Of a stretch of DNA of 64,000 nt, positions 16,958 to 26,353 are shown piece after piece. The notes under the pieces were generated by a model, which was given only the letters and a program-made list of their open reading frames with translations, did not search any database and was not told where the DNA came from. How positions within the stretch are numbered: position 1 is the stretch's first letter; each line of letters opens with the position of its first letter. Both the position numbers and the translations under genes were made by a program. Source of the DNA: Calothrix sp. C42_A2020_038 (GTDB lineage: Bacteria; Cyanobacteriota; Cyanobacteriia; Cyanobacteriales; Nostocaceae); NCBI GenBank assembly GCA_015272395.1, contig JACYLQ010000001.1, forward strand, positions 434,001 to 498,000, given 5' to 3'.

Positions 16958-18208
16958 TTAATGCATGAAATGTGGTAGTAATGTACTCAAACGACCAGAA
17001 TAATTATTTGACCAAAGGCGCCTGCAACCCATTCGTAAGCTATTGTATCCAAAGTGTATTGGTATTAGTCCAGGTATGAGAGTCCGGATGACGTGAATAC
17101 CAGAGTCAGCTAGATTTTGTGGTGTAATGTCGCATATGTAAATACGATAACCTAGCTTGCCTAAAGTTTGAAGTATATGATTAAGATACTCTTTTTCATT
17201 AAAATGTTGCTGGAAAAGGATACTGCTATCTTGAGGTTTTTGAGAGTGAAGTACCTGGGCTAAGAATTGACGCAACACAGGGTTTAGAAAACCTTTATTG
17301 TAAAGTGCATAATGGTCTTCTGGTGTTTTGACTTGAGGAAGAGATTGATGTTTTAATTCCCACGGGGGTGTTCGACGTTGCGAAAAAAGAGACTGACTAA
17401 GTTCCACAACAGCATGACTAAGAGCATGAAACCAGTCTGGGTGACAACCTAAACCGTAGATAAAAGAATTTCCTTTGAGGGCAATGACCAAAAAGCATGG
17501 TATATCAAGGTCATATGTTAAGTAACAAACTGTGACTACAAATCCTAAATTCTGAATCTTACGGAGTTCTTGGCGTAATGTATATACAGGAATGACTTCA
17601 ATGGAGATAGTCGCAGTCGGTGGTTGACGATACCAAAAAAACATCAAGCTGTCCCGTTCTATCACTTCACAAATTGCCAAAAGTATTGCTGTATCTTTGT
17701 GAAAGTGTGCTGCTGTTCCACTAGATGTTTCAATAACTATAGGGCTGCGATTAAGATATGCTCGTGGATAGATAAACTCGATGGGTATAAGCTTTGTGTT
17801 ATTGGTGGCAACCTCAGATACTTCAAGCCATTGTAGTGGCATTTGTTCGGAAAAAGGTACGCATTTAAAATCAGAGGCTGTATACTGGGCATGGCTGTAA
17901 AGCCCACAAGCGGTTGGTAAAATAGCATTTTCTTGTAAAGAAGCGTAAGATTGGATGATTGTAGGTGTTGAAACATTGGGTTGAAATTGGGCATAACGCT
18001 CTACACATTCCATCACCGCGCGTTGCATCGCAATATCTTCTGAGTTTCCTGCACCAAACCCATAGATTGACTCAATATCGGTACAAACTTGAGCAGTGGC
18101 GTTGAAGTATGATGAAGTACTCGATTTTGCTTTTTCAATATAAAAATGAGTCTCTATCTGAAGTCTTTTCACTACTTCCTGAAGAGTGGAAATATCGGGA
18201 GTCATCAT
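16958..18208 (-). CDS. YcaO-domain enzyme
   Basis: 416 residues. YcaO proteins activate peptide amides with ATP, forming azolines (RiPP cyclodehydratases) or thioamides. ATP-binding motifs are visible: ExxER in MECVERYA, a second in ICEVIERD, and the Gln-containing helix AVVELSQSLFSQR. The C-terminus is LLPHFMH and lacks the PxPxP tail usual in azoline-forming enzymes. No E1-like (ocin-ThiF) or TfuA partner is in the window. It is last in a ten-gene minus-strand run, 26 bases after the methyltransferase gene. No strong ribosome site precedes ATG 18208. The substrate is unknown; the small proteins encoded at 23.6-26 kb are candidates. Confidence 0.85.
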   Translation of the reverse strand: MMTPDISTLQEVVKRLQIETHFYIEKAKSSTSSYFNATAQVCTDIESIYGFGAGNSEDIAMQRAVMECVERYAQFQPNVSTPTIIQSYASLQENAILPTACGLYSHAQYTASDFKCVPFSEQMPLQWLEVSEVATNNTKLIPIEFIYPRAYLNRSPIVIETSSGTAAHFHKDTAILLAICEVIERDSLMFFWYRQPPTATISIEVIPVYTLRQELRKIQNLGFVVTVCYLTYDLDIPCFLVIALKGNSFIYGLGCHPDWFHALSHAVVELSQSLFSQRRTPPWELKHQSLPQVKTPEDHYALYNKGFLNPVLRQFLAQVLHSQKPQDSSILFQQHFNEKEYLNHILQTLGKLGYRIYICDITPQNLADSGIHVIRTLIPGLIPIHFGYNSLRMGCRRLWSNNYSGRLSTLLPHFMH

Positions 18209-18234
18209 TAGTAGTTTAATAATAATTATTTTAA

Positions 18235-19107
18235 TTAAAGTTTAATGGCACACCAGTGTCCAATTATAAATGCCCCTACTTGTGCCGCTTGCATAAGAGC
18301 AACTCCCGCTTGCCTAAGTGTTTTGTGAGCTAAGGGTATAGGATTTGACTGATAACGATAGATTTCTTGAATTATTTTGGGGTTGAGAGGTTGCCAATTC
18401 CGCATTACATTTCCACGCGCGGATGCATCTTCGAGTATTTCTACAAAGAAGCCAGCAGCTTGTAAATAGTCTTGGAGTTCGCTTAATGTCACCATATGCG
18501 GTACAGCATGATATCTGTAAATTGGTTCAATATATTCCAATTCTTCCTGGGGTGTTAGTCCTTCACGACGCATCCAGTCAGTACCAACAAAACGTCCTCC
18601 TTTACGCAAAACTCGCCCACACTCTTGATAAAATTTACTTTTATCTGGCATATGGCAAGCGGACTCAAACAAGTAAACACCATCAAAATATTCATCAGGA
18701 AATGGTAAATTCATCGCATCCACGATTTCAAAACTGGTTTGCTCAGATAAACCACTCACACTCGCGCGCTGACGGGCAATTTGAATATGTTGCTCAACAA
18801 TATCTACACCGATGACATTAGCTCCAGAATATTTGGCAATAGTGAGTGCTGGTCCTCCCAAACCACAACCAACATCTAGCACAGTCATCCCAGAACAAAA
18901 ACCACCTTCCTCAGCAATCATTTTTTCAGTAGCAATTAATGCTGTCTGCCGAGTTTCACCATTAGAAAAAATCGCAAAATGATAACAATCACCCCATAGT
19001 AAACGATACAGTTCTGTGATTTCATAATAGACCTGCACTCTCATTTTATACTGTGCAGTTCGTTCAGCAGGGTCTTGAATTATTTTTTCAAACTCTAACT
19101 CGTTCAC
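18235..19107 (-). CDS. SAM methyltransferase of the tocopherol/sterol/isoprenoid type
   Basis: 290 residues, class I fold. Motif I is VLDVGCGLGGPALTIAKYSG, followed by GVDIVEQHIQIA (acidic binding residue), IVDAMNLPFPDEYFDG and the LRKGGRFVGTDW strand. The ESACHMPDKSKFYQECGRVL segment and the YRYHAVPHMVTLSE region resemble tocopherol, sterol and prenyl-diphosphate methyltransferases, so a terpenoid acceptor is reasonable given the neighbours, though O- versus C-methylation cannot be told. The GTG start (19107) overlaps the SagB stop as GTGA, indicating coupled translation. Confidence 0.85.
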   Translation of the reverse strand: MNELEFEKIIQDPAERTAQYKMRVQVYYEITELYRLLWGDCYHFAIFSNGETRQTALIATEKMIAEEGGFCSGMTVLDVGCGLGGPALTIAKYSGANVIGVDIVEQHIQIARQRASVSGLSEQTSFEIVDAMNLPFPDEYFDGVYLFESACHMPDKSKFYQECGRVLRKGGRFVGTDWMRREGLTPQEELEYIEPIYRYHAVPHMVTLSELQDYLQAAGFFVEILEDASARGNVMRNWQPLNPKIIQEIYRYQSNPIPLAHKTLRQAGVALMQAAQVGAFIIGHWCAIKL

Positions 19108-20102
19108 GTTGCACCACCAATTGCTAAAACATAGATAATCACTTCATAAGGAAAATTTAGACCAGCAGCATGACTAAGTTGCTCATCATTAAAACCGCAA
19201 ATAGGCAAAGATTTTAAACCTAATCCAGAAGCTATAAGCAAAACGTTCTGAGCAATATGTCCAGCTTCGATTAATGCTAATCGATAAGATTTTTCACCAT
19301 ACTTCCCCAGTGATAGACGGGCGAAATCAATAAATAAAAGCAGCAATATACTTGCCTCTTGAATTGGATGTTCATTAAGCAACTCGACTAAAACATCTTT
19401 TGGCAAAGAAGGTGACACCGAAACCATTCTATGAGACAATACCTGATAGTAATAAAAGCCTGAATTTATAGTTTCCACCTGTAAAGGGTAAACTAATAGC
19501 TCAATCGGATAAAGTCCTCCCCCAGAGGGATAAGTTCGTTTCGCAACCGGACCACCCAAAACCAACGCTGCTAGTGGTTCGTCAAACTTATTCCCACCCA
19601 GCCCAGCACCCATTGCTAAGATTGTAGACAAGTTGACCTTTGTTACCGCTTGCCCAGAAAATTGTCGCACACTACGTCGCTTAAGTAATACTTGTTCCAG
19701 ATTGACATTCGCAAGTTGTGGTGGTGGGAGTTTTTGAGTTGCTTTACCAGAATACTCTCGTAACAACCGTGCTGTTTCATATCCAGGACTAATAGTGGGA
19801 TAATCTTTTACATCTATTGTTTCTTTATGCAAATCTACCAATCGAGAACTTAGTGTCCAGGGTATAAGAACTTCCTCATCAAGTAATTTGTTAACAAGTT
19901 CTGCTCCCGTTGAACCAGGATGTGTACGGGACAGCGTTTCAGATAACCAAACAGACGAACGAGGTGTTTGGAGTAAAACAGCTAGTGTTTGCAATTGAGC
20001 GCCGACTCCTGGCAAAATCAACTTTGCTCGATTTGAACGTTCTATAATTCCATCGTTACCGTTAGTAATGATTTTGACATCGTTAGCAAAGCGAACTATC
20101 AT
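19104..20102 (-). CDS. SagB-type FMN oxidoreductase
   Basis: About 332 residues. The N-terminal ~90 residues form a winged-helix-like domain (LVNKLLDEEVLIP), common in SagB-type enzymes. The nitroreductase-fold catalytic domain begins at LLKRRSVRQFSGQAVTK, with YPSGGGLYPIELLVYP and EAGHIAQNVLLIASGLGLKS as FMN-binding and dimer segments. SagB enzymes oxidise YcaO-made azolines to azoles; related forms have other substrates. It lies between the prenyl synthase and methyltransferase genes of the same run. ATG 20102 is chosen over an upstream TTG (20135); neither has a clear ribosome site. Confidence 0.85.
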   Translation of the reverse strand: MIVRFANDVKIITNGNDGIIERSNRAKLILPGVGAQLQTLAVLLQTPRSSVWLSETLSRTHPGSTGAELVNKLLDEEVLIPWTLSSRLVDLHKETIDVKDYPTISPGYETARLLREYSGKATQKLPPPQLANVNLEQVLLKRRSVRQFSGQAVTKVNLSTILAMGAGLGGNKFDEPLAALVLGGPVAKRTYPSGGGLYPIELLVYPLQVETINSGFYYYQVLSHRMVSVSPSLPKDVLVELLNEHPIQEASILLLLFIDFARLSLGKYGEKSYRLALIEAGHIAQNVLLIASGLGLKSLPICGFNDEQLSHAAGLNFPYEVIIYVLAIGGAT

Positions 20103-20158
20103 AAAGTAGTTTGTAATCAGGTACAAATTTATCAAAAAGAAATATACTGTAAATATAC

Positions 20159-21160
20159 TTACCTTGCAGTCGCAAATAAAGCTAGTGTTCGCAGTAAGTC
20201 AACTTCCCTAGAAGCATTCAGGCTATTTAAGGCAGTTAAAGCAGCTGCAAGATACTTTTCCTGAACTTTGCTGACTTGCTCAAAAATACCTTGCTGTTCC
20301 AACAATGCCACAACTTGTAAACGCGGGTATCCTGCTTGTTGCAGACGACGGTATTCTTTACGAACTGATTGCGAACCGTACTTTTGTAAGTAAATTAACG
20401 GTAATATTGGTCGCTCTAACATCAAAGAGTTACTAACAGGTTTACCTAATATTTGTGAATCTCCGGTTAAATCCAGCATATCATCGTAAATTTGATACGC
20501 AATACCCAAATTAAAACCGTAGCTTTGCAAAGCAGATATTTCTAAATCTGTTCCTCCTAATAAAATTCCTCCTAGAGTTGCAGCAGCAGCAAAGGGTGAA
20601 CCGGTTTTGTTACGAGCTATTGATAAATAATTTTCTTCTGAATCTGTTTCAGGTTCGCAAAGCAGTTCTTCAAGTTGACCGCGACAGCATAACTTTGCAT
20701 AATTACTAAGTGCATTAGAAGCAGCTAATACTTTATCTGCTGTAAATACTGCTTGTGTTGAGTTCAATACATTAAAAGCACTAAATAGCAGATAATCGCC
20801 AATGACTATAGCTGTATTTATATTGAATTGAGTATGTAAGGTTGTAGTTCTTCGTCGAATAGCTGCATCATCAATGATATCATCATGAATCAGCGAAGCG
20901 ACATGAAGCATTTCAATCGCTTCTGCCACCTCAATTACCTCAGTCGGGCGCCCACCCAGAGCCGATGTCGTAATAAAGACTAGTAGTGGTCTAAACATTT
21001 TGCCACCTTCAAAATATTTAACAACTACGGCACCAAATGGATCGGTTTTTAGACGATTTGTCAGACTGTTTCTACAATTTTGTAAGTCGGTAGCGTATCT
21101 ACTTAAGATTTCTTCTACTTCTTTTGGGTCAAAATTTAATTTATTTAGAACTATTTTCAC
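20159..21160 (-). CDS. Trans-polyprenyl diphosphate synthase
   Basis: 333 residues in the FPP/GGPP/long-chain synthase family. The first Asp-rich motif is HDDIIDDAAIRR, the second YQIYDDMLDLTGD, with GGKMFRPLLVF and RNKTGSPFAAAATLGG also present. The enzyme condenses IPP with allylic diphosphates; chain length cannot be fixed by eye, although Leu-His-Val before the first motif (MLHVASLIHDD) is common in longer-chain enzymes. The GTG at 21160 follows GGAGGTGA by four bases, which makes it the start rather than the ATG at 21223. It probably supplies the cyclase encoded just upstream. Confidence 0.9.
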   Translation of the reverse strand: MKIVLNKLNFDPKEVEEILSRYATDLQNCRNSLTNRLKTDPFGAVVVKYFEGGKMFRPLLVFITTSALGGRPTEVIEVAEAIEMLHVASLIHDDIIDDAAIRRRTTTLHTQFNINTAIVIGDYLLFSAFNVLNSTQAVFTADKVLAASNALSNYAKLCCRGQLEELLCEPETDSEENYLSIARNKTGSPFAAAATLGGILLGGTDLEISALQSYGFNLGIAYQIYDDMLDLTGDSQILGKPVSNSLMLERPILPLIYLQKYGSQSVRKEYRRLQQAGYPRLQVVALLEQQGIFEQVSKVQEKYLAAALTALNSLNASREVDLLRTLALFATAR

Positions 21161-21251
21161 TAAATCACCTCCAATCTGGATATGTGGCGCCTGAAGTCGA
21201 TGTGTAAAAGCCTTTACAATCAATCAACGTATTAAAGTGTTTTCAAACATC

Positions 21252-21365
21252 CTAGTGGTCTGTATCAAAAGTTTTGGTTGTATAAATCATGTCTTGTGGA
21301 GCAGACATCCTTGGCTGAACAATAGAACAGGCATCCTGCCTGTTCCACAACCTACTAGAATTAAT
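21252..21365 (-). repeat. Dispersed repeat, copy 1, inside the cyclase 3' end
   Basis: Read on the minus strand this contains GTTGTGGAACAGG, GGATGTCTG, CCACAA, ATTTATAC and ACCAAAACTT in the same order as bases 63930-64000. It encodes the final ~35 residues of the terpene cyclase-like protein, which look unlike the family. Confidence 0.65.
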
Positions 21366-23540
21366 GACATGAACCATTAGGATAGCCTTTAAACAAAAAG
21401 TTGTTGCTATTGCACGACTACTGTATTTGACTGTTCCATGAGAATTACTGCCGTTTTGCCAATGTGCTTCTGTCCACGGGAAAGCTATCCATGTACTTGC
21501 TGCCCAACCACCATCGGGTTGTTGAGTGCTGATTAAATAGTTAATGCCTCGTTTGATACTTGTTTCTTCTGTTACTCCTAGCGCACTCAAAGCTAGTATT
21601 GCAAAAGCTGTTGATAATGGTTCGCTATGATCGTCTCCCCAACCACCATCAGTATGTTGAGTAGTAAAAAGGAAGTTGGCTGCACGACGCAATGCTGCAC
21701 TATCTGGAGTCAGTTTACTGAGAACTAATGCTACTCTATAAGTACCGTAGTAAGGACCTGCATACCATTTACTCATCCATGCCCCTTGTTCATTTTGCAC
21801 TTTCTCTAAGTATTTGGTGGCACGCAATAAGATATTCTGATAAAGTGATTGATTATACAAAATGAGTCCATACAGCAGGTTTGCGACTACTTCTGGATGG
21901 ATTCCTCCACCACCCATTACTGCTAAGTAAGCTTGCATTTGGTAGTCCAAAGACGACCGACCACGAGGGTCAAGAATCCAAGTAGGAAAACCCCCGTCGG
22001 GTGTTGCAGAGTCCAGAGTTAAGCGAATTGCTTCATCACACGTAGAAGCAAGTGCAGAACCACCAACACGGTAGAGTTCTTGAAGTACTTGTCCTAAATC
22101 ATCTGCATCTGGAGGTAGTTCCGGTACAGAGTTAATATAACTCCAACCACCACGTACATAACGATGTTTCGTCCGTAGGATAGATAGCGCTTCTGCGTCC
22201 AGTACCTGTCTGGGTACAGGTAGTCCAGCAGCATAAGCGTCTAATAGACCATCTAAGATGACTGCGCGAAATGAAAGCACAGCAGGGTGGGTTTCGTAGC
22301 GTATCCCGTCTGGATAAGACCGAGGAAAACAAAGATGGTGAATTGCTTCACGATAACCATCACGCTGTTGAGAAAGTAGCAAATTTGTGGCTGAAACTAG
22401 AGGTGCTATTTCAGGTGAGTGCAACTCTTTGCTGGTAAGTAGGGTTTGCTTGATATAGGCGCCGTCTTCCTGCCAGTCAACCCACGAAGCTACTATTGTA
22501 CGGGCAAAATTAATTACACGAGACAGCGATGTGTTAATAACTTCTAATTGGGAAAATCTTAGTATTTTTACTAAATTTTTTACCGTTTCTGCCACAATAT
22601 CATACACGTCAGTATCACGGATATACGCCCGATTTTTTTGTGGTTGACTCTTGGCAAAATGGAGAATGATGAAATTGGGCGTATAACTGCGACAGTCCGA
22701 AAGCAAATCAACCAAATCATCAACCAGCAAAAACACACGACCCAATGTCTCACTAACTTTTTGAGAGATTGAAAGTGTCTCTAATTGTGAGAATGCGAGG
22801 TTAGAGATTTGTAACATTGCCAGAGACGGTACTGCTGACTTCCTCTCCAAAGCTAAAATCAAACTGTCAACATCTGTATCCTGAGCAAAATTCCAAAGGC
22901 TAACTTTTCGCTCCGCTTCAAACAAACTAACTATTGTCTTACCAAGATTAATCCAGGCAGTATCGTTACCAGTGCAACGGTGTAACGAGCGCCCCTGTTC
23001 AGCACAACTTCCAATCAAAGCAAATAACAAACGTAAGTGGAGACTAGAAATTTGATTGTAGACAGCGGCAAATACCGATTCTATATTCACTGTATCATCG
23101 AATATCCACCGCACAAAATTGCCCTGCAACAGAGTAAACAACTCACTTTTTTCCGCGCGTTCATCAGCCAAGTAGTCAAGGATAGCAATGGCAGTGTTGA
23201 AAGTAGCTCCTAGTACCCCGACAGTAGTATCTAAATCAGACGATGCTGATGTTAACCCATGTAGTACACATGTTTGTTGAAATCCTAAGCCAGCAATCCA
23301 AGGAAGACGATTCCAGAGATAAGGGTCTACTTCTGCAATGGCACGGTAATCTTTAATATTGACAAAAGCTGGAAATAGTCTCGGCAATTCTTCTTCGCGC
23401 AGCCAATTACCCAATTGATATTGTTCGGCAACGATGCGATTATATTCAGCATCATCTACCGTAAAACCGTTTGCCCGCAAAGCTACACGTATTACAGCGC
23501 AAAGATGGCGATTGTCTAACACACCGTGGTATGTGAGCAT
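21252..23540 (-). CDS. Two-domain terpene cyclase-like protein (isoprenoid-synthase + class II cyclase)
   Basis: 762 residues. Residues ~80-390 look like an isoprenoid synthase: DYLAD (122-126) at the place of the first Asp-rich motif, a Lys-Ser at 234-235, and an intact DDLVD (274-278) at the second. Residues ~400-725 are a squalene/diterpene-cyclase beta-type domain with GGWSY (464-468), the class II acid motif DADD (478-481), and QW motifs HTDGGWGDD and QQPDGGWAA. The domain order (alpha-like before beta) is the reverse of plant bifunctional cyclases. The last ~35 residues (from about 727) are encoded within a dispersed repeat. GAGGA precedes the ATG. The likely role is cyclisation of a linear prenyl diphosphate. 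Confidence 0.75.
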   Translation of the reverse strand: MLTYHGVLDNRHLCAVIRVALRANGFTVDDAEYNRIVAEQYQLGNWLREEELPRLFPAFVNIKDYRAIAEVDPYLWNRLPWIAGLGFQQTCVLHGLTSASSDLDTTVGVLGATFNTAIAILDYLADERAEKSELFTLLQGNFVRWIFDDTVNIESVFAAVYNQISSLHLRLLFALIGSCAEQGRSLHRCTGNDTAWINLGKTIVSLFEAERKVSLWNFAQDTDVDSLILALERKSAVPSLAMLQISNLAFSQLETLSISQKVSETLGRVFLLVDDLVDLLSDCRSYTPNFIILHFAKSQPQKNRAYIRDTDVYDIVAETVKNLVKILRFSQLEVINTSLSRVINFARTIVASWVDWQEDGAYIKQTLLTSKELHSPEIAPLVSATNLLLSQQRDGYREAIHHLCFPRSYPDGIRYETHPAVLSFRAVILDGLLDAYAAGLPVPRQVLDAEALSILRTKHRYVRGGWSYINSVPELPPDADDLGQVLQELYRVGGSALASTCDEAIRLTLDSATPDGGFPTWILDPRGRSSLDYQMQAYLAVMGGGGIHPEVVANLLYGLILYNQSLYQNILLRATKYLEKVQNEQGAWMSKWYAGPYYGTYRVALVLSKLTPDSAALRRAANFLFTTQHTDGGWGDDHSEPLSTAFAILALSALGVTEETSIKRGINYLISTQQPDGGWAASTWIAFPWTEAHWQNGSNSHGTVKYSSRAIATTFCLKAILMVHVINSSRLWNRQDACSIVQPRMSAPQDMIYTTKTFDTDH

Positions 23541-23612
23541 TAAAATGTCCTCAGTATCAGTAATCAGGAAACACTTCTACACTTGAACTATCCTGTCAGG
23601 TTTTACAACAAG

Positions 23613-23948
23613 CTACTTTAGCGCATGAGTTAAAGCCAAATCAGTAACCACTTGTAGACAGTCGCAAATTTGAGAAGCTACTTCATTTTCACCCCTTACA
23701 ATTGCCCCATTTAGATACTCAAACATTTGAATTAAGGACTGTTTTCCCTCATCGGAAAGGTGATGGCGCCAAAAAGCTTCACGCCATATTTGCAAAGATT
23801 GAGGATGATGGGTAAATTCTAAAGCGTGGCTAAGGATATTTATCGCTTCTACTTTTGGATGAGAAATCATCCCATACTTTGGTGGTTGCCGAATATAGTA
23901 CTCGATAGTACTAACTAATTCAGTGATGTAGGAATATTGAGATTCCAT
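23613..23948 (-). CDS. Small helical protein in the terpene/YcaO run
   Basis: 111 residues, predicted all-helical, with features YSYITELVSTIEYYIRQPPK and WREAFWRHHLSDEGKQSLIQ. I do not recognise a family. GAGGTG precedes ATG 23948. It lies 72 bases upstream of the cyclase gene on the same strand and 34 bases after the gene at 23983-24264. A carrier, adaptor or substrate role is possible; none can be shown. Confidence 0.55.
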   Translation of the reverse strand: MESQYSYITELVSTIEYYIRQPPKYGMISHPKVEAINILSHALEFTHHPQSLQIWREAFWRHHLSDEGKQSLIQMFEYLNGAIVRGENEVASQICDCLQVVTDLALTHALK

Positions 23949-23982
23949 GAAGTACACCTCTAAAAAATTGTGCTTACAACTG

Positions 23983-24264
23983 TTACTGTTGCAATGATTT
24001 ACAGGGTATAAGACCGCGTGACATAATCAGTTCCAGTGCCTTATGAATTAAATCCGACTCAGAAGTAATCGGGAAAAAGAATTCGGGGAAAAGACCAGTT
24101 GCGAAAATAGGTTCGTATGCTTTACCGTGAAAAATCACTGGAGAATCAGATTTTGTCATTTGGGAAATAAATTCCTCCTTATTTTCAATTGGATATTCCA
24201 GATGACGAGTACGAGCTAATTCAGCTAGTTCTGAATACTGAGTTGATAAAGAGTTTTCAAGCAT
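23983..24264 (-). CDS. Small protein with the YPI...FFPI domain (copy 3)
   Basis: 93 residues. It shares a ~60-residue block with the proteins at 24959-25489 and 25533-25997: YPIENKEEF, then an IFHGKAYEPI strand, LFPEFFFPITSESDLIHKAL. It lacks the signal peptide and the C-terminal GG tail of those two, and ends IPCKSLQQ. The domain is not one I know. It is a candidate substrate, leader-binding or structural protein for the nearby YcaO and SagB enzymes. The ribosome site is weak. Confidence 0.6.
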   Translation of the reverse strand: MLENSLSTQYSELAELARTRHLEYPIENKEEFISQMTKSDSPVIFHGKAYEPIFATGLFPEFFFPITSESDLIHKALELIMSRGLIPCKSLQQ

Positions 24265-24337
24265 TGTCCCAGCTTTTTAAAAGATGATGATAGACGCACC
24301 CACGCAATTAGTGTTTGACTCAAACCTTTAAATCTTT

Positions 24338-24577
24338 TTAAGACCAACATTTACAGTTGCTAGATGGAGGGGGAGAAGGACAGAGAACGGCGTACATACT
24401 AGAGTAGCCATTGGTGTTTCCACAAACAGTCTGATAGTTTGGCGCACTTACGCAAAAGCTTTGATTCAAACCAATGTACATGTAATACCAGCCATCACCT
24501 CTGTTGTAGAAGTTAACAGAAAACCTGGCATTCGTAATTACTCTCCCCGTTTTGCAATCGGTTACTATAATCCACAT
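24338..24577 (-). CDS. 79-residue Cys-rich protein, possible modified-peptide precursor
   Basis: Contains six Cys. The body (MWIIVTDCKTGRVITNARFS) reads like a small beta-sandwich of the carboxypeptidase-regulatory/transthyretin-like type. It ends in a Pro/Ser/Cys tail, CPSPPPSSNCKCWS, whose Cys and Ser residues are the kind that YcaO enzymes heterocyclise. No signal peptide is evident. Position in the YcaO run makes it a precursor candidate, but a structural or secreted Cys-rich protein is equally possible. AAAGG lies nine bases before the ATG, and a 381-base spacer upstream suggests its own promoter. Confidence 0.5.
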   Translation of the reverse strand: MWIIVTDCKTGRVITNARFSVNFYNRGDGWYYMYIGLNQSFCVSAPNYQTVCGNTNGYSSMYAVLCPSPPPSSNCKCWS

Positions 24578-24958
24578 AATTAAAAACCTTTCTTAATGAG
24601 GTCTTCCAGTACATATGTCACACAAATCTATATAAAATCATGGCGTTTACATAACAAATTTTTTTGTAGTCAGACTGTGCTGCCCACAAGCACTAGAAGA
24701 CAGGGTTAACGAAGGAATGAAACTCTCTCCTGACTCCCGGAAACCTCGCTGCTTTATGAGATGTGTGTACACCTAGCTCCTTAGTAAGGTGGAGCGATAG
24801 GAGAGGGATCTTCGCATTAAATTGGTATTAGGGGTTAAGTTCCCCACAGGAATTGATCCCCCAACCCCCTTAAAAAATAGGGGGGTTAAGAGCGCAAGTC
24901 CTAATTATTTGTAGTGGAATTATCCATTACAAATCAAAGACAAACTTCTGGAGCGCGT
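24578..24958. other. Intergenic region with a small hairpin
   Basis: A 381-base spacer in the biosynthetic run. It contains GCTCCTTAGTAAGGTGGAGC (24776-24795), an imperfect hairpin, and a C-rich/G-rich inverted tract near 24858-24890 (CCCCC-AACCCCCTT/AGGGGGGTT) similar to other dispersed repeats. It may hold a terminator for the upstream gene and a promoter for the Cys-rich gene. No open frame worth naming was found. Confidence 0.4.
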
Positions 24959-25489
24959 CTATTTTTGTCCTCCCAGAATGCTTTCACTACCTGCTTGTGT
25001 GCGGAACTGACTGTGAATCTGTTCTGCTGAAATTACGGGAGGTTTCGTGTTTGGTACCCGTCTTTCACGTCTTCCTTGAGTTTGAATTAAAGCCAATTTT
25101 GTCTCAAGGTCTTTCTGTGATACGATTGGGAAAAAAGAAGGTGGCATAACTCGTTTTGCATCAGCCAGCCTTAGCTCTACACCTTGAGCAGGAATTCTTG
25201 CATTGACCCCACCCAAAGGAGCAACCAATTCTTCAAAAGAATTGATCGGATATCTCGTTTGAGACGAAATCACCTTCACAATTGGACGAACATCCTGTCT
25301 CTGCAAGTAAGTTTGCATTGCACTATCGATAACACGCTTATTTACTTGTTGTAATTGCAATTCATTACCTGTAACAGAAGGTTTTGATTGACCAAGAGCT
25401 GATGCTCCTCCCACAACTACGGCGCCTGTGACGAAACCTCCAAGTAATCTCAGTATTTGACGACGATGTAAGTAAAGTTTTCTAGACAT
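24959..25489 (-). CDS. Exported protein with YPI...FFPI domain (copy 2) and C-terminal GG
   Basis: 176 residues. The N-terminus (SRKLYLHRRQILRLLGGFVTG followed by a hydrophobic stretch ending ASALG) looks like a Tat-type or Sec signal. The shared domain follows: RYPINSFEELVAPLG and MPPSFFPIVSQKDLETKL. The last 25 residues (PPVISAEQIHSQFR, SESILGGQK) resemble the end of the protein at 25533-25997. It sits 43 bases downstream of that gene. The family is unrecognised; location outside the cytosol is inferred from the signal. Confidence 0.6.
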   Translation of the reverse strand: MSRKLYLHRRQILRLLGGFVTGAVVVGGASALGQSKPSVTGNELQLQQVNKRVIDSAMQTYLQRQDVRPIVKVISSQTRYPINSFEELVAPLGGVNARIPAQGVELRLADAKRVMPPSFFPIVSQKDLETKLALIQTQGRRERRVPNTKPPVISAEQIHSQFRTQAGSESILGGQK

Positions 25490-25532
25490 AGTTTAGTTGC
25501 ATCCTCAACAAAGATTTGGATGATTGATCTTT

Positions 25533-25997
25533 TTACTGTAGTCCCCCGATAGCAGAACTAGTATGTTGTTCTACTATAGTTCTAATTTCTTCCATTGGGA
25601 TGTTTGGTGGTTCAGTTCCTTCTGGTGGATTCGGTTGAGCTTCTCCCCTTAATAAATTTAAACCAGTACTAGTTTCAGTCTCTTCAACTTGAACGCTAGA
25701 AAACACTTGCGCTCTAATATCAGCTATTTTTGCAATTAAATCGTCTTCTGAACCGATTGGAAAATAGTAATCAGGTAGAAACTGTCCTATATCAATCAGA
25801 TTAAAAGACTGATCTTCAAAGGAAATAGTTACCTCTTCTGAATCTAAAGCATTAGCTATTTCCTCAAAGTTCTGAATTGGATAATTAACTTTTGGGGAAA
25901 TTAATTGAACAATTTTAATTACCTCTGTTATATCTGGGTAAAGTTGTAAAACCCTATTAAGCAGAGGTAAATCTTCTGGTAAAAATTCCTGAAACAT
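25533..25997 (-). CDS. Protein with YPI...FFPI domain (copy 1) and C-terminal GG
   Basis: 154 residues, no signal peptide. Residues ~35-105 carry the shared domain (YPIQNFEEIANALDSEEV, FLPDYYFPIGSEDDLIAKI). A Pro-rich linker (EAQPNPPEGTEPPNIP) leads to a tail EEIRTIVEQHTSSAIGGLQ that matches the end of the next protein. ATG 25997 is chosen because AGAGGAGATAG precedes it; an earlier ATG at 26024 lacks one. It is the first gene of the ten-gene run. The function is unknown; a role as scaffold or precursor is a guess. Confidence 0.6.
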   Translation of the reverse strand: MFQEFLPEDLPLLNRVLQLYPDITEVIKIVQLISPKVNYPIQNFEEIANALDSEEVTISFEDQSFNLIDIGQFLPDYYFPIGSEDDLIAKIADIRAQVFSSVQVEETETSTGLNLLRGEAQPNPPEGTEPPNIPMEEIRTIVEQHTSSAIGGLQ

Positions 25998-26304
25998 CAA
26001 ACTATCTCCTCTTCTAAAAATCATCAGAGAGGTTTATATTCAGGACAAACGCATTCACCCTGATACACATTCAATAATATGCAATTAATATGCAAGAATG
26101 TTATAACTAATGCGTTTGACTTGACAACTCAATTTCTTGTAGTCTATGTATATCAAATATTCACTTAGTATTACATTAATTATGATGATTTTTTTATAAA
26201 AGTTTACATAATCGCATATTTATTAAATTTGTCAAAGTTAGCAGAGGCGAACATGGCGCCACGTATTTCGATTCTTTGGCACCAGTAAAAATTAAACATC
26301 TCCA

Positions 26305-26353
26305 AACCTCTCCCCAACCCCTCTCCTAGTAGGAGAGGGGTTGGGGAGAGGTT
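26305..26353 (-). terminator. Long perfect hairpin after ppsA
   Basis: AACCTCTCCCCAACCCCTCT and its complement face each other with a four-base loop, starting 20 bases after the ppsA stop. It is one of the window's longest perfect stems. It probably ends ppsA transcription, although no T-run follows; the sequence is also a common cyanobacterial repeat. The rest of the 375-base spacer (25998-26372) is AT-rich and should contain the promoter of the run starting at 25997. Confidence 0.55.

Follow-up and report, generated by a model that had tools for sequence, protein, structure and literature searches.

A candidate peptide-directed terpene pathway joining YcaO- and SagB-type enzymes to a fused terpene cyclase in Calothrix sp. 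C42_A2020_038

A ten-gene run with a counterpart in another phylum

The window analysed here is a 64,000-nucleotide stretch of the genome of the cyanobacterium Calothrix sp. C42_A2020_038 (contig JACYLQ010000001.1, positions 434,001 to 498,000; genome size 6.5 Mb), and its minus strand carries, from 16958 to 26024, a series of ten open reading frames (ORFs) that may encode a pathway joining peptide and terpene chemistry. An earlier note on this DNA had described the run as containing YcaO, SagB, a methyltransferase, a polyprenyl synthase, a cyclase, and small proteins; all ten ORFs are present on inspection, and family scans confirm the five enzyme genes. Adjacent ORFs are spaced by -4 to 73 nt, with the exception of the 381 nt between the small genes P8 and P9.

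At the low-coordinate end lies YcaO (16958 to 18208), encoding a cyclodehydratase-like protein of 416 aa that scores 200.7 bits against PF02624, above the cut-off, and 215.1 bits against TIGR03604, slightly below the cut-off of 219.25; the ExxER motifs of the ATP site can be seen, and the protein aligns with MusD, TruD, and LynD. Next to it are MT (18235 to 19107; 290 aa), an S-adenosylmethionine (SAM) methyltransferase with 83.2 bits to Methyltransf_11, and a SagB-type dehydrogenase (19104 to 20135; 343 aa for the longest ORF) with 108.1 bits to TIGR03605 (cut-off 78.4). PPS (20159 to 21223; 354 aa) is a polyprenyl diphosphate synthase (PF00348, 179.8 bits); its top NCBIfam match is the encapsulin cargo model NF041169, at 183.5 bits against a cut-off of 450. 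PC (21252 to 23540; 762 aa) is the fusion enzyme treated below. No E1-like or TfuA partner for YcaO, an absence that the earlier note had remarked on, appears among the profile matches listed for the ten proteins (for MT, the best 25 of 78 NCBIfam matches), the rest of the genome not having been searched.

The earlier note had also counted five small proteins, and five there are, three of which, P7 (23983 to 24264; 93 aa), P9 (24959 to 25489; 176 aa), and P10 (25533 to 25997), are paralogues resembling MTH865. They share YPI, P..(F)FPI, and S..DL..K stretches; their likeness to MTH865 reaches E=0.0034 for PDB 1iio, and all miss the PF07747 cut-off of 25 bits (P10 24.7, P9 21.8, and P7 13 bits). 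MTH865-like proteins occur in 1 of 208 family genomes, and P7 has no match among plasmids. The N-terminus of P9 is what we take to be twin-arginine-like. For P10, the first gene of the run, the longest ORF (163 aa) extends to 26024; we prefer the internal ATG at 25997, which gives 154 aa, because the alignment with the homologue from Acidipila rosea, introduced next, begins there. P6 (23613 to 23957; up to 114 aa) has no Pfam or NCBIfam match. The fifth small protein, P8 (24338 to 24577; 79 aa), is the candidate precursor.

The run is matched by a locus in Acidipila rosea DSM 103428, a member of the Acidobacteriota. The scan that found it covered one genome per species in 84,980 species and started from a two-row alignment of the window PC and a relative from Gemmatirosa; it under-counts because it used two peptide patterns. 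Of the 24 loci returned, only the Acidipila one (L049) is near full length, over query residues 1-721; among the other 23, the ORFs of 7 look like ordinary squalene-hopene-type cyclases, and 16 were judged by match range only. The Acidipila locus contains homologues of nine of the ten window genes, with PC, PPS, SagB, MT, and YcaO in the window order, and BLASTP identities are 41.7% for YcaO, 46.8% for MT, 40.7% for SagB (beginning at residue 12 of the longest ORF), 43.2% for PPS, 41.3% for PC (736 columns), 37.4% for P6 (over 99 aa), 51.9% for P7 (over 79 aa), 65.0% for P8, and 32.9% for P10. The Acidipila SagB scores 86.1 bits against TIGR03605, also above the cut-off, and the Acidipila P10 homologue 18.2 bits against PF07747. 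P9 has no Acidipila orthologue of its own, its closest likeness being 36.4% over 88 aa to the P10-type protein. Because homologues of nine of the ten genes occur together in another phylum, the gene run is more than a chance assembly. An additional gene inside the Acidipila cluster (L049 8350-9213), which the window cluster lacks, encodes a DUF6065 protein (PF19541, 296 bits), possibly an extra tailoring or accessory protein.

The co-conservation that the earlier note had proposed to look for in relatives of the host is seen in Acidipila for nine of the ten genes; among host relatives, PC is near full length only in its own genome. At E<=1e-20, 3 of 386 genomes of the host phylum match PC, namely the own genome and two with the C domain only (G016 and G038). 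All 7 genus genomes match at 1e-10, with the whole length only in the own genome; the other matches span C-terminal 120-135 residues within hopene-cyclase-sized ORFs. In Acidobacteriota, PC is found at E<=1e-30 in 2 of 396 genomes across the phylum and in 1 of 300 within the family, each count including Acidipila. In the host-phylum scan and these two, as in a further one of 378 order genomes, only 1-3 candidates were scored in many genomes. PC has no relative among viral contigs, and of 63 plasmid records none covers 80% of it, the best being from Gemmatirosa at 35.7%. YcaO matches at E<=1e-25 occur in 42 of 217 family genomes, all except that of the own genome at 26-31% identity, and 190 plasmid records match it, all under 60%. 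The window protein and its Acidipila homologue group together with 100/100 support in a YcaO tree of 32 rows, separate from one protein of Gloeothece and 29 family YcaOs (29 of the 41 other family matches; 12 had no locus), although the placement of the pair is unsure because the branches are long.

GC content (40.0% in the cluster against 38.1% in the window) gives no sign of a genomic island. Promoter-like matches (34 against 27.9 expected, sd 3.7) and terminator-like matches (6 against 7.1 expected, sd 2.9) are both near chance, and the kinase gene flanking the cluster has many paralogues. For one flanking protein, Acaryochloris is the sole source of relatives on plasmids. Just upstream, at 26305-26353 and adjoining a PEP-synthase-like gene, lies a perfect inverted repeat of 24 nt with 1 nt between its arms.

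The fusion enzyme, its relatives, and the candidate substrate

PC was described earlier as a two-domain terpene cyclase. Two domains are indeed present, and the C half is class II cyclase-like; the N half resembles a class I trans-prenyl synthase. The C half matches SQHop_cyclase_C (79.4 bits), and in the PDB it finds squalene-hopene cyclases (E 5e-18), chains of about 360 aa (8pak and 8paj), and, in a weak alignment over residues 450-690, MstE (6sbf and related entries, E 0.0006-0.02). Against the squalene-hopene cyclase equivalog TIGR01507 it scores 61.8 bits (cut-off 431.1), with the match in the C-terminal part alone and short of the full two-toroid form. A profile built from six N domains finds polyprenyl synthases among the PDB entries (4lob is the best, at 6.8e-7), the noise level being marked by unrelated dehaloperoxidases at 0.03; in a profile comparison with the PPS of the cluster, it aligns near the second Asp motif at 42% probability. 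Eight aspartates are invariant in all six aligned PC proteins and supply the first and second aspartate-rich motifs (FARM, D122/D126; SARM, D274/D275/D278), the DxDD motif (D478/D480), and D282. Given the N-domain profile, the C-domain matches, and these invariant residues, the most fitting description of PC is a fusion in which a class I domain like that of trans-prenyl synthases precedes one resembling class II cyclases. An ordinary hopanoid or sterol pathway was considered and rejected: the genome has an ORF of hopene-cyclase size at another place, and PC resembles such enzymes in its C-terminal part alone. PPS is closer to the Acidipila copy than to either of its paralogues in the host genome, CrtE (568 bits) and one other, to both of which its identity is 33%.

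Four of the six compared PC proteins have no YcaO or SagB in the roughly 19-20 kb around them, and in all four loci M50 proteins adjoin PC. In three of these (G568, G550, and G1443), the neighbours of PC also include radical SAM/SPASM proteins and leader-type peptides that carry Cys. In G568, another member of the Acidobacteriota (L076 6774-13669), PC is accompanied by a radical SAM/SPASM protein, two Cys-rich peptides in tandem (62 and 64 aa), a glycosyltransferase, and an M50 protein that scores 134.6 bits against a daptide metalloprotease model (cut-off 300). G550 (L080 2451-12617) and G1443 (L081 4355-13265), the sole carriers of PC besides the own genome among the 378 order genomes, combine PC with a radical SAM protein, an Rce1-like protease, an M50 protein, and a peptide of 65 or 53 aa that has a similar leader and carries two Cys; a glycosyltransferase is present in G550 but was not found in G1443, and ABC permease- and HlyD-like genes, read by eye, lie further out at both loci. 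The fourth PC, from Gemmatirosa (L044), overlaps an M50 protein with 92.1 bits to the same daptide model, and no clear precursor was seen at this locus. The N-termini of the M50 proteins look PqqD-like by eye, the one profile match being that of G568 at 15.2 bits (cut-off 70). In a tree of seven PC proteins, the YcaO-type pair separates from the radical SAM-type trio with 100/100 in the group test, and the trio fork has 98/96. From the radical SAM-type relatives, the fusion enzyme would seem to be a module that recurs alongside different maturases. The radical SAM-type system may itself be undescribed, since the G568 radical SAM protein falls far under the cut-offs of all equivalog-type NCBIfam models among the best 25 of its 65 matches. 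More distant class I and class II fusions occur in the same phylum as the window, at L012 7561-9519 (G016) and L013 2-1588 (G038), the latter interrupted by a contig end.

Two further genes were noticed at these loci. A small ORF upstream of the Gemmatirosa PC (L044 7605-7964) has a Cys-containing stretch and a tail that we take to be PEP-CTERM-like, and is a possible precursor. Near the G568 cluster, L076 16105-17019 encodes a protein with an AraC-type helix-turn-helix and a NUDIX domain, which looks like an isopentenyl-diphosphate isomerase fusion.

P8 is the best conserved protein between the window and Acidipila, its identity exceeding that of every enzyme. All six Cys are common to both versions, as are N74, C75, C77, W78, and S79, and the tail, NCKCWS in the window and NCSCWS in Acidipila, has the common form NCxCWS, which would fit a heterocyclizable C-terminal core. 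Identities by codon position are 71/78/41%, the pattern that would be expected under purifying selection. An AlphaFold model (pLDDT 67.9) has six strands, with residues 75-79 below pLDDT 50; the best structural match, a PDE6D/UNC119-like fold (E 0.83, TM 0.25), was treated as noise, and a CBM_25 match of the Acidipila protein (20.5 bits, below 27.3) was not used. When the small ORFs of both loci were compared (164 x 206), the one extra same-strand match was an out-of-frame shadow of P8 and no further shared same-strand short gene appeared, the rest being opposite-strand ORFs with one weak match. P8 has no relative among plasmids, phages, or viral contigs, and occurs in 1 of 95 Acidipila relatives, a count that includes Acidipila itself. 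That P8 is the substrate of the pathway seems to us about an even chance.

A peptide-directed terpene pathway and its rivals

Our preferred reading, to which we give a probability of about 0.62, is that the cluster encodes a peptide-directed terpene pathway, the product of which would be a ribosomally synthesized and post-translationally modified peptide (RiPP) bearing a terpenoid. From the gene content, the catalytic motifs, and the co-conservation in Acidipila, we infer a substrate, an acceptor, a product, and a tentative order of steps. PPS would make a prenyl diphosphate, which the N domain of PC would ionize at its DxxxD and DDxxD metal sites, moving the chain onto an acceptor residue within the P8 C-terminal tail; the C domain would then protonate the chain end through DxDD and cyclize the attached chain. 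YcaO would cyclodehydrate Cys or Ser of the NCKCWS tail, SagB would oxidize the resulting azolines to azoles, as SagB-type enzymes do in known systems, and MT would methylate the product. The MTH865-like proteins and P6 could be accessory, carrier, or scaffold proteins. The earlier idea of a hybrid peptide-terpenoid product is strengthened in that both halves are kept together in Acidipila and that PC relatives stand in RiPP-like loci; the expectation that the terpene genes keep company with YcaO and SagB is contradicted only in part, as two of the six PC proteins follow it and, of the other four, three stand with radical SAM proteins and precursor-like peptides and one with an M50-type protein.

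Several observations weigh against this reading. The YcaO protein ends in LLPHFMH, without the PxPxP end that marks azoline-forming YcaOs. A search for a leader-binding partner (RiPP recognition element), comparing the SagB N-terminus with the N-termini of the M50 proteins, gave no match in what was a weak test with profiles of 2 and 4 sequences, and no protease or exporter was recognized in the window cluster, unlike in the radical SAM type. For P8, a fold search returned nothing significant, and a core as conserved as the leader is unusual for a RiPP. The full set was found in two genomes only, and the small genes of Acidipila stand in a different order (P7, P6, P10, P8) from those of the window. 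No RiPP gene was recognized near the L012 and L013 fusions, which speaks against a link of the fusion enzyme to RiPPs throughout. The AlphaFold model of PC, made from a two-row alignment, is unusable (pLDDT 44.7). Finally, the position just before the second Asp motif is L271 in the window PC, Trp in Acidipila, and Gln in the other four of six. We infer that this is the Gln that excerpts of a review (PMC13290415) tie to Trp recognition; the ordinary PPS of the cluster also carries Gln there, so the residue is no specific mark of Trp enzymes. With Gln apparently replaced by Leu or Trp, the acceptor may not be Trp, and we do not class PC as a Trp prenyltransferase.

Some of the same evidence bears on whether the two halves of the cluster act on one molecule. 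Two pathways could share one operon, with PPS and PC producing a free terpenoid by class II and then class I cyclization, in the manner of bifunctional diterpene synthases, and YcaO, SagB, and MT separately modifying a peptide: PC carries both kinds of motif, metal and acid, that a bifunctional terpene synthase has, a dedicated PPS adjoins it, and the distant fusions stand without recognized RiPP genes. We regard this as rather unlikely, since the YcaO/SagB and terpene halves occur together in two phyla and the three PC relatives found with radical SAM proteins and leader-type peptides have no recognized prenyl synthase adjoining them. The choice of P8 as substrate can also be questioned, as the modified protein could be P7, P9, or P10, with P8 as a partner or carrier. 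The window has three such paralogues and Acidipila two, and GG occurs near the C-terminus of window P9 and P10 and of the Acidipila P10 homologue; however, the tails of P9 and P10 lack Cys for azoles, and conservation is below that of P8 (32.9% for P10 against 65.0%), which makes this alternative decidedly unlikely. That PC prenylates the peptide while YcaO and SagB perform other chemistry, for example making a thioamide or an amidine or acting on another residue, would suit a YcaO without a PxPxP end and without an E1-like or TfuA match in the cluster, but is improbable given that SagB scores above the TIGR03605 cut-off in both loci and that SagB-type enzymes are known azoline oxidases.

Under the preferred reading, the joint reaction of peptide and terpene could take an unusual form. 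It is possible, although we hold it only as a tentative suggestion, that the fusion clade has moved off Trp and places and cyclizes a polyprenyl chain on Cys, or an azoline derived from it, in a conserved protein of about 80 aa, giving a terpenoid-thiazole modification on a protein that stays intact or is trimmed; we know of no such linkage, although no literature search was aimed at it. Since no leader-binding partner, protease, or exporter was seen and P8 is evenly conserved, the product may be a whole protein carrying the modification and not a cleaved peptide. The presence of nearly the whole set in a cyanobacterium and an acidobacterium, with a precursor candidate conserved beyond the enzymes, suggests that what is made has a fixed function. 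If the reading is right, azole formation and terpene cyclization would be joined in one RiPP route with a dedicated prenyl supply. P8 offers a concrete substrate candidate, and the natural replacements of Gln by Leu and Trp could serve as probes of acceptor choice in peptide prenyltransferases.

Comparison with known systems

The cluster shares parts with several known systems. The C domain of PC resembles MstE in a weak alignment and in its DxDD motif; MstE is monodomain, stands alone, and acts on a prenylated aromatic acid, whereas the class II domain of PC is fused to a class I domain. Clusters for thiazole/oxazole-modified microcins and linear azol(in)e-containing peptides (TOMM/LAP) likewise place YcaO and a SagB-type dehydrogenase in one operon with a small Cys/Ser-bearing protein; the window cluster differs in showing no E1-like partner, in the YcaO terminus, and in the added terpene module. 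ComQ and PalQ are isoprenoid-synthase folds that act on ribosomal peptides, and in an excerpt of PMC10853753 PalQ prenylates a C-terminal Trp, to which the conserved penultimate Trp of P8 may be compared; as far as these sources describe them, they have no cyclase domain, and the Gln said to be common to them is not seen in the window PC. According to PMC13290415, all characterized trans-isoprenyl diphosphate synthase (trans-IDS)-like enzymes target Trp and carry this Gln directly before the second Asp motif.

The closest parallels are NctPC and ChrPC, fused prenyltransferase-cyclases that modify Trp of ribosomal peptides and then cyclize the chain, for which the same excerpts of PMC13290415 cite Hubrich et al. 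2024 (Chem 10:3224). As described there, NctPC uses a C20 donor and the P domain of ChrPC donors of C10-C20. Like PC, each combines in one chain a prenyltransferase domain and a cyclase domain similar to MstE, and the P domain of ChrPC is trans-IDS-like. The PC proteins of the window and Acidipila differ, in a comparison that takes ChrPC by its description, in appearing to lack the Gln and in their partners: YcaO, SagB, MT, a PPS of their own, P8, and MTH865-like proteins. The earlier statement that no described cluster has this set holds for the exact set, which was not found in the open-licence literature, and needs amending in that fused prenyltransferase-cyclases were described in 2024 as the makers of RiPPs bearing polycyclic isoprenoids (PMC13290415). 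Peptide terpenylation by fused enzymes is therefore already known; its combination with YcaO, SagB, MT, and PPS looks new.

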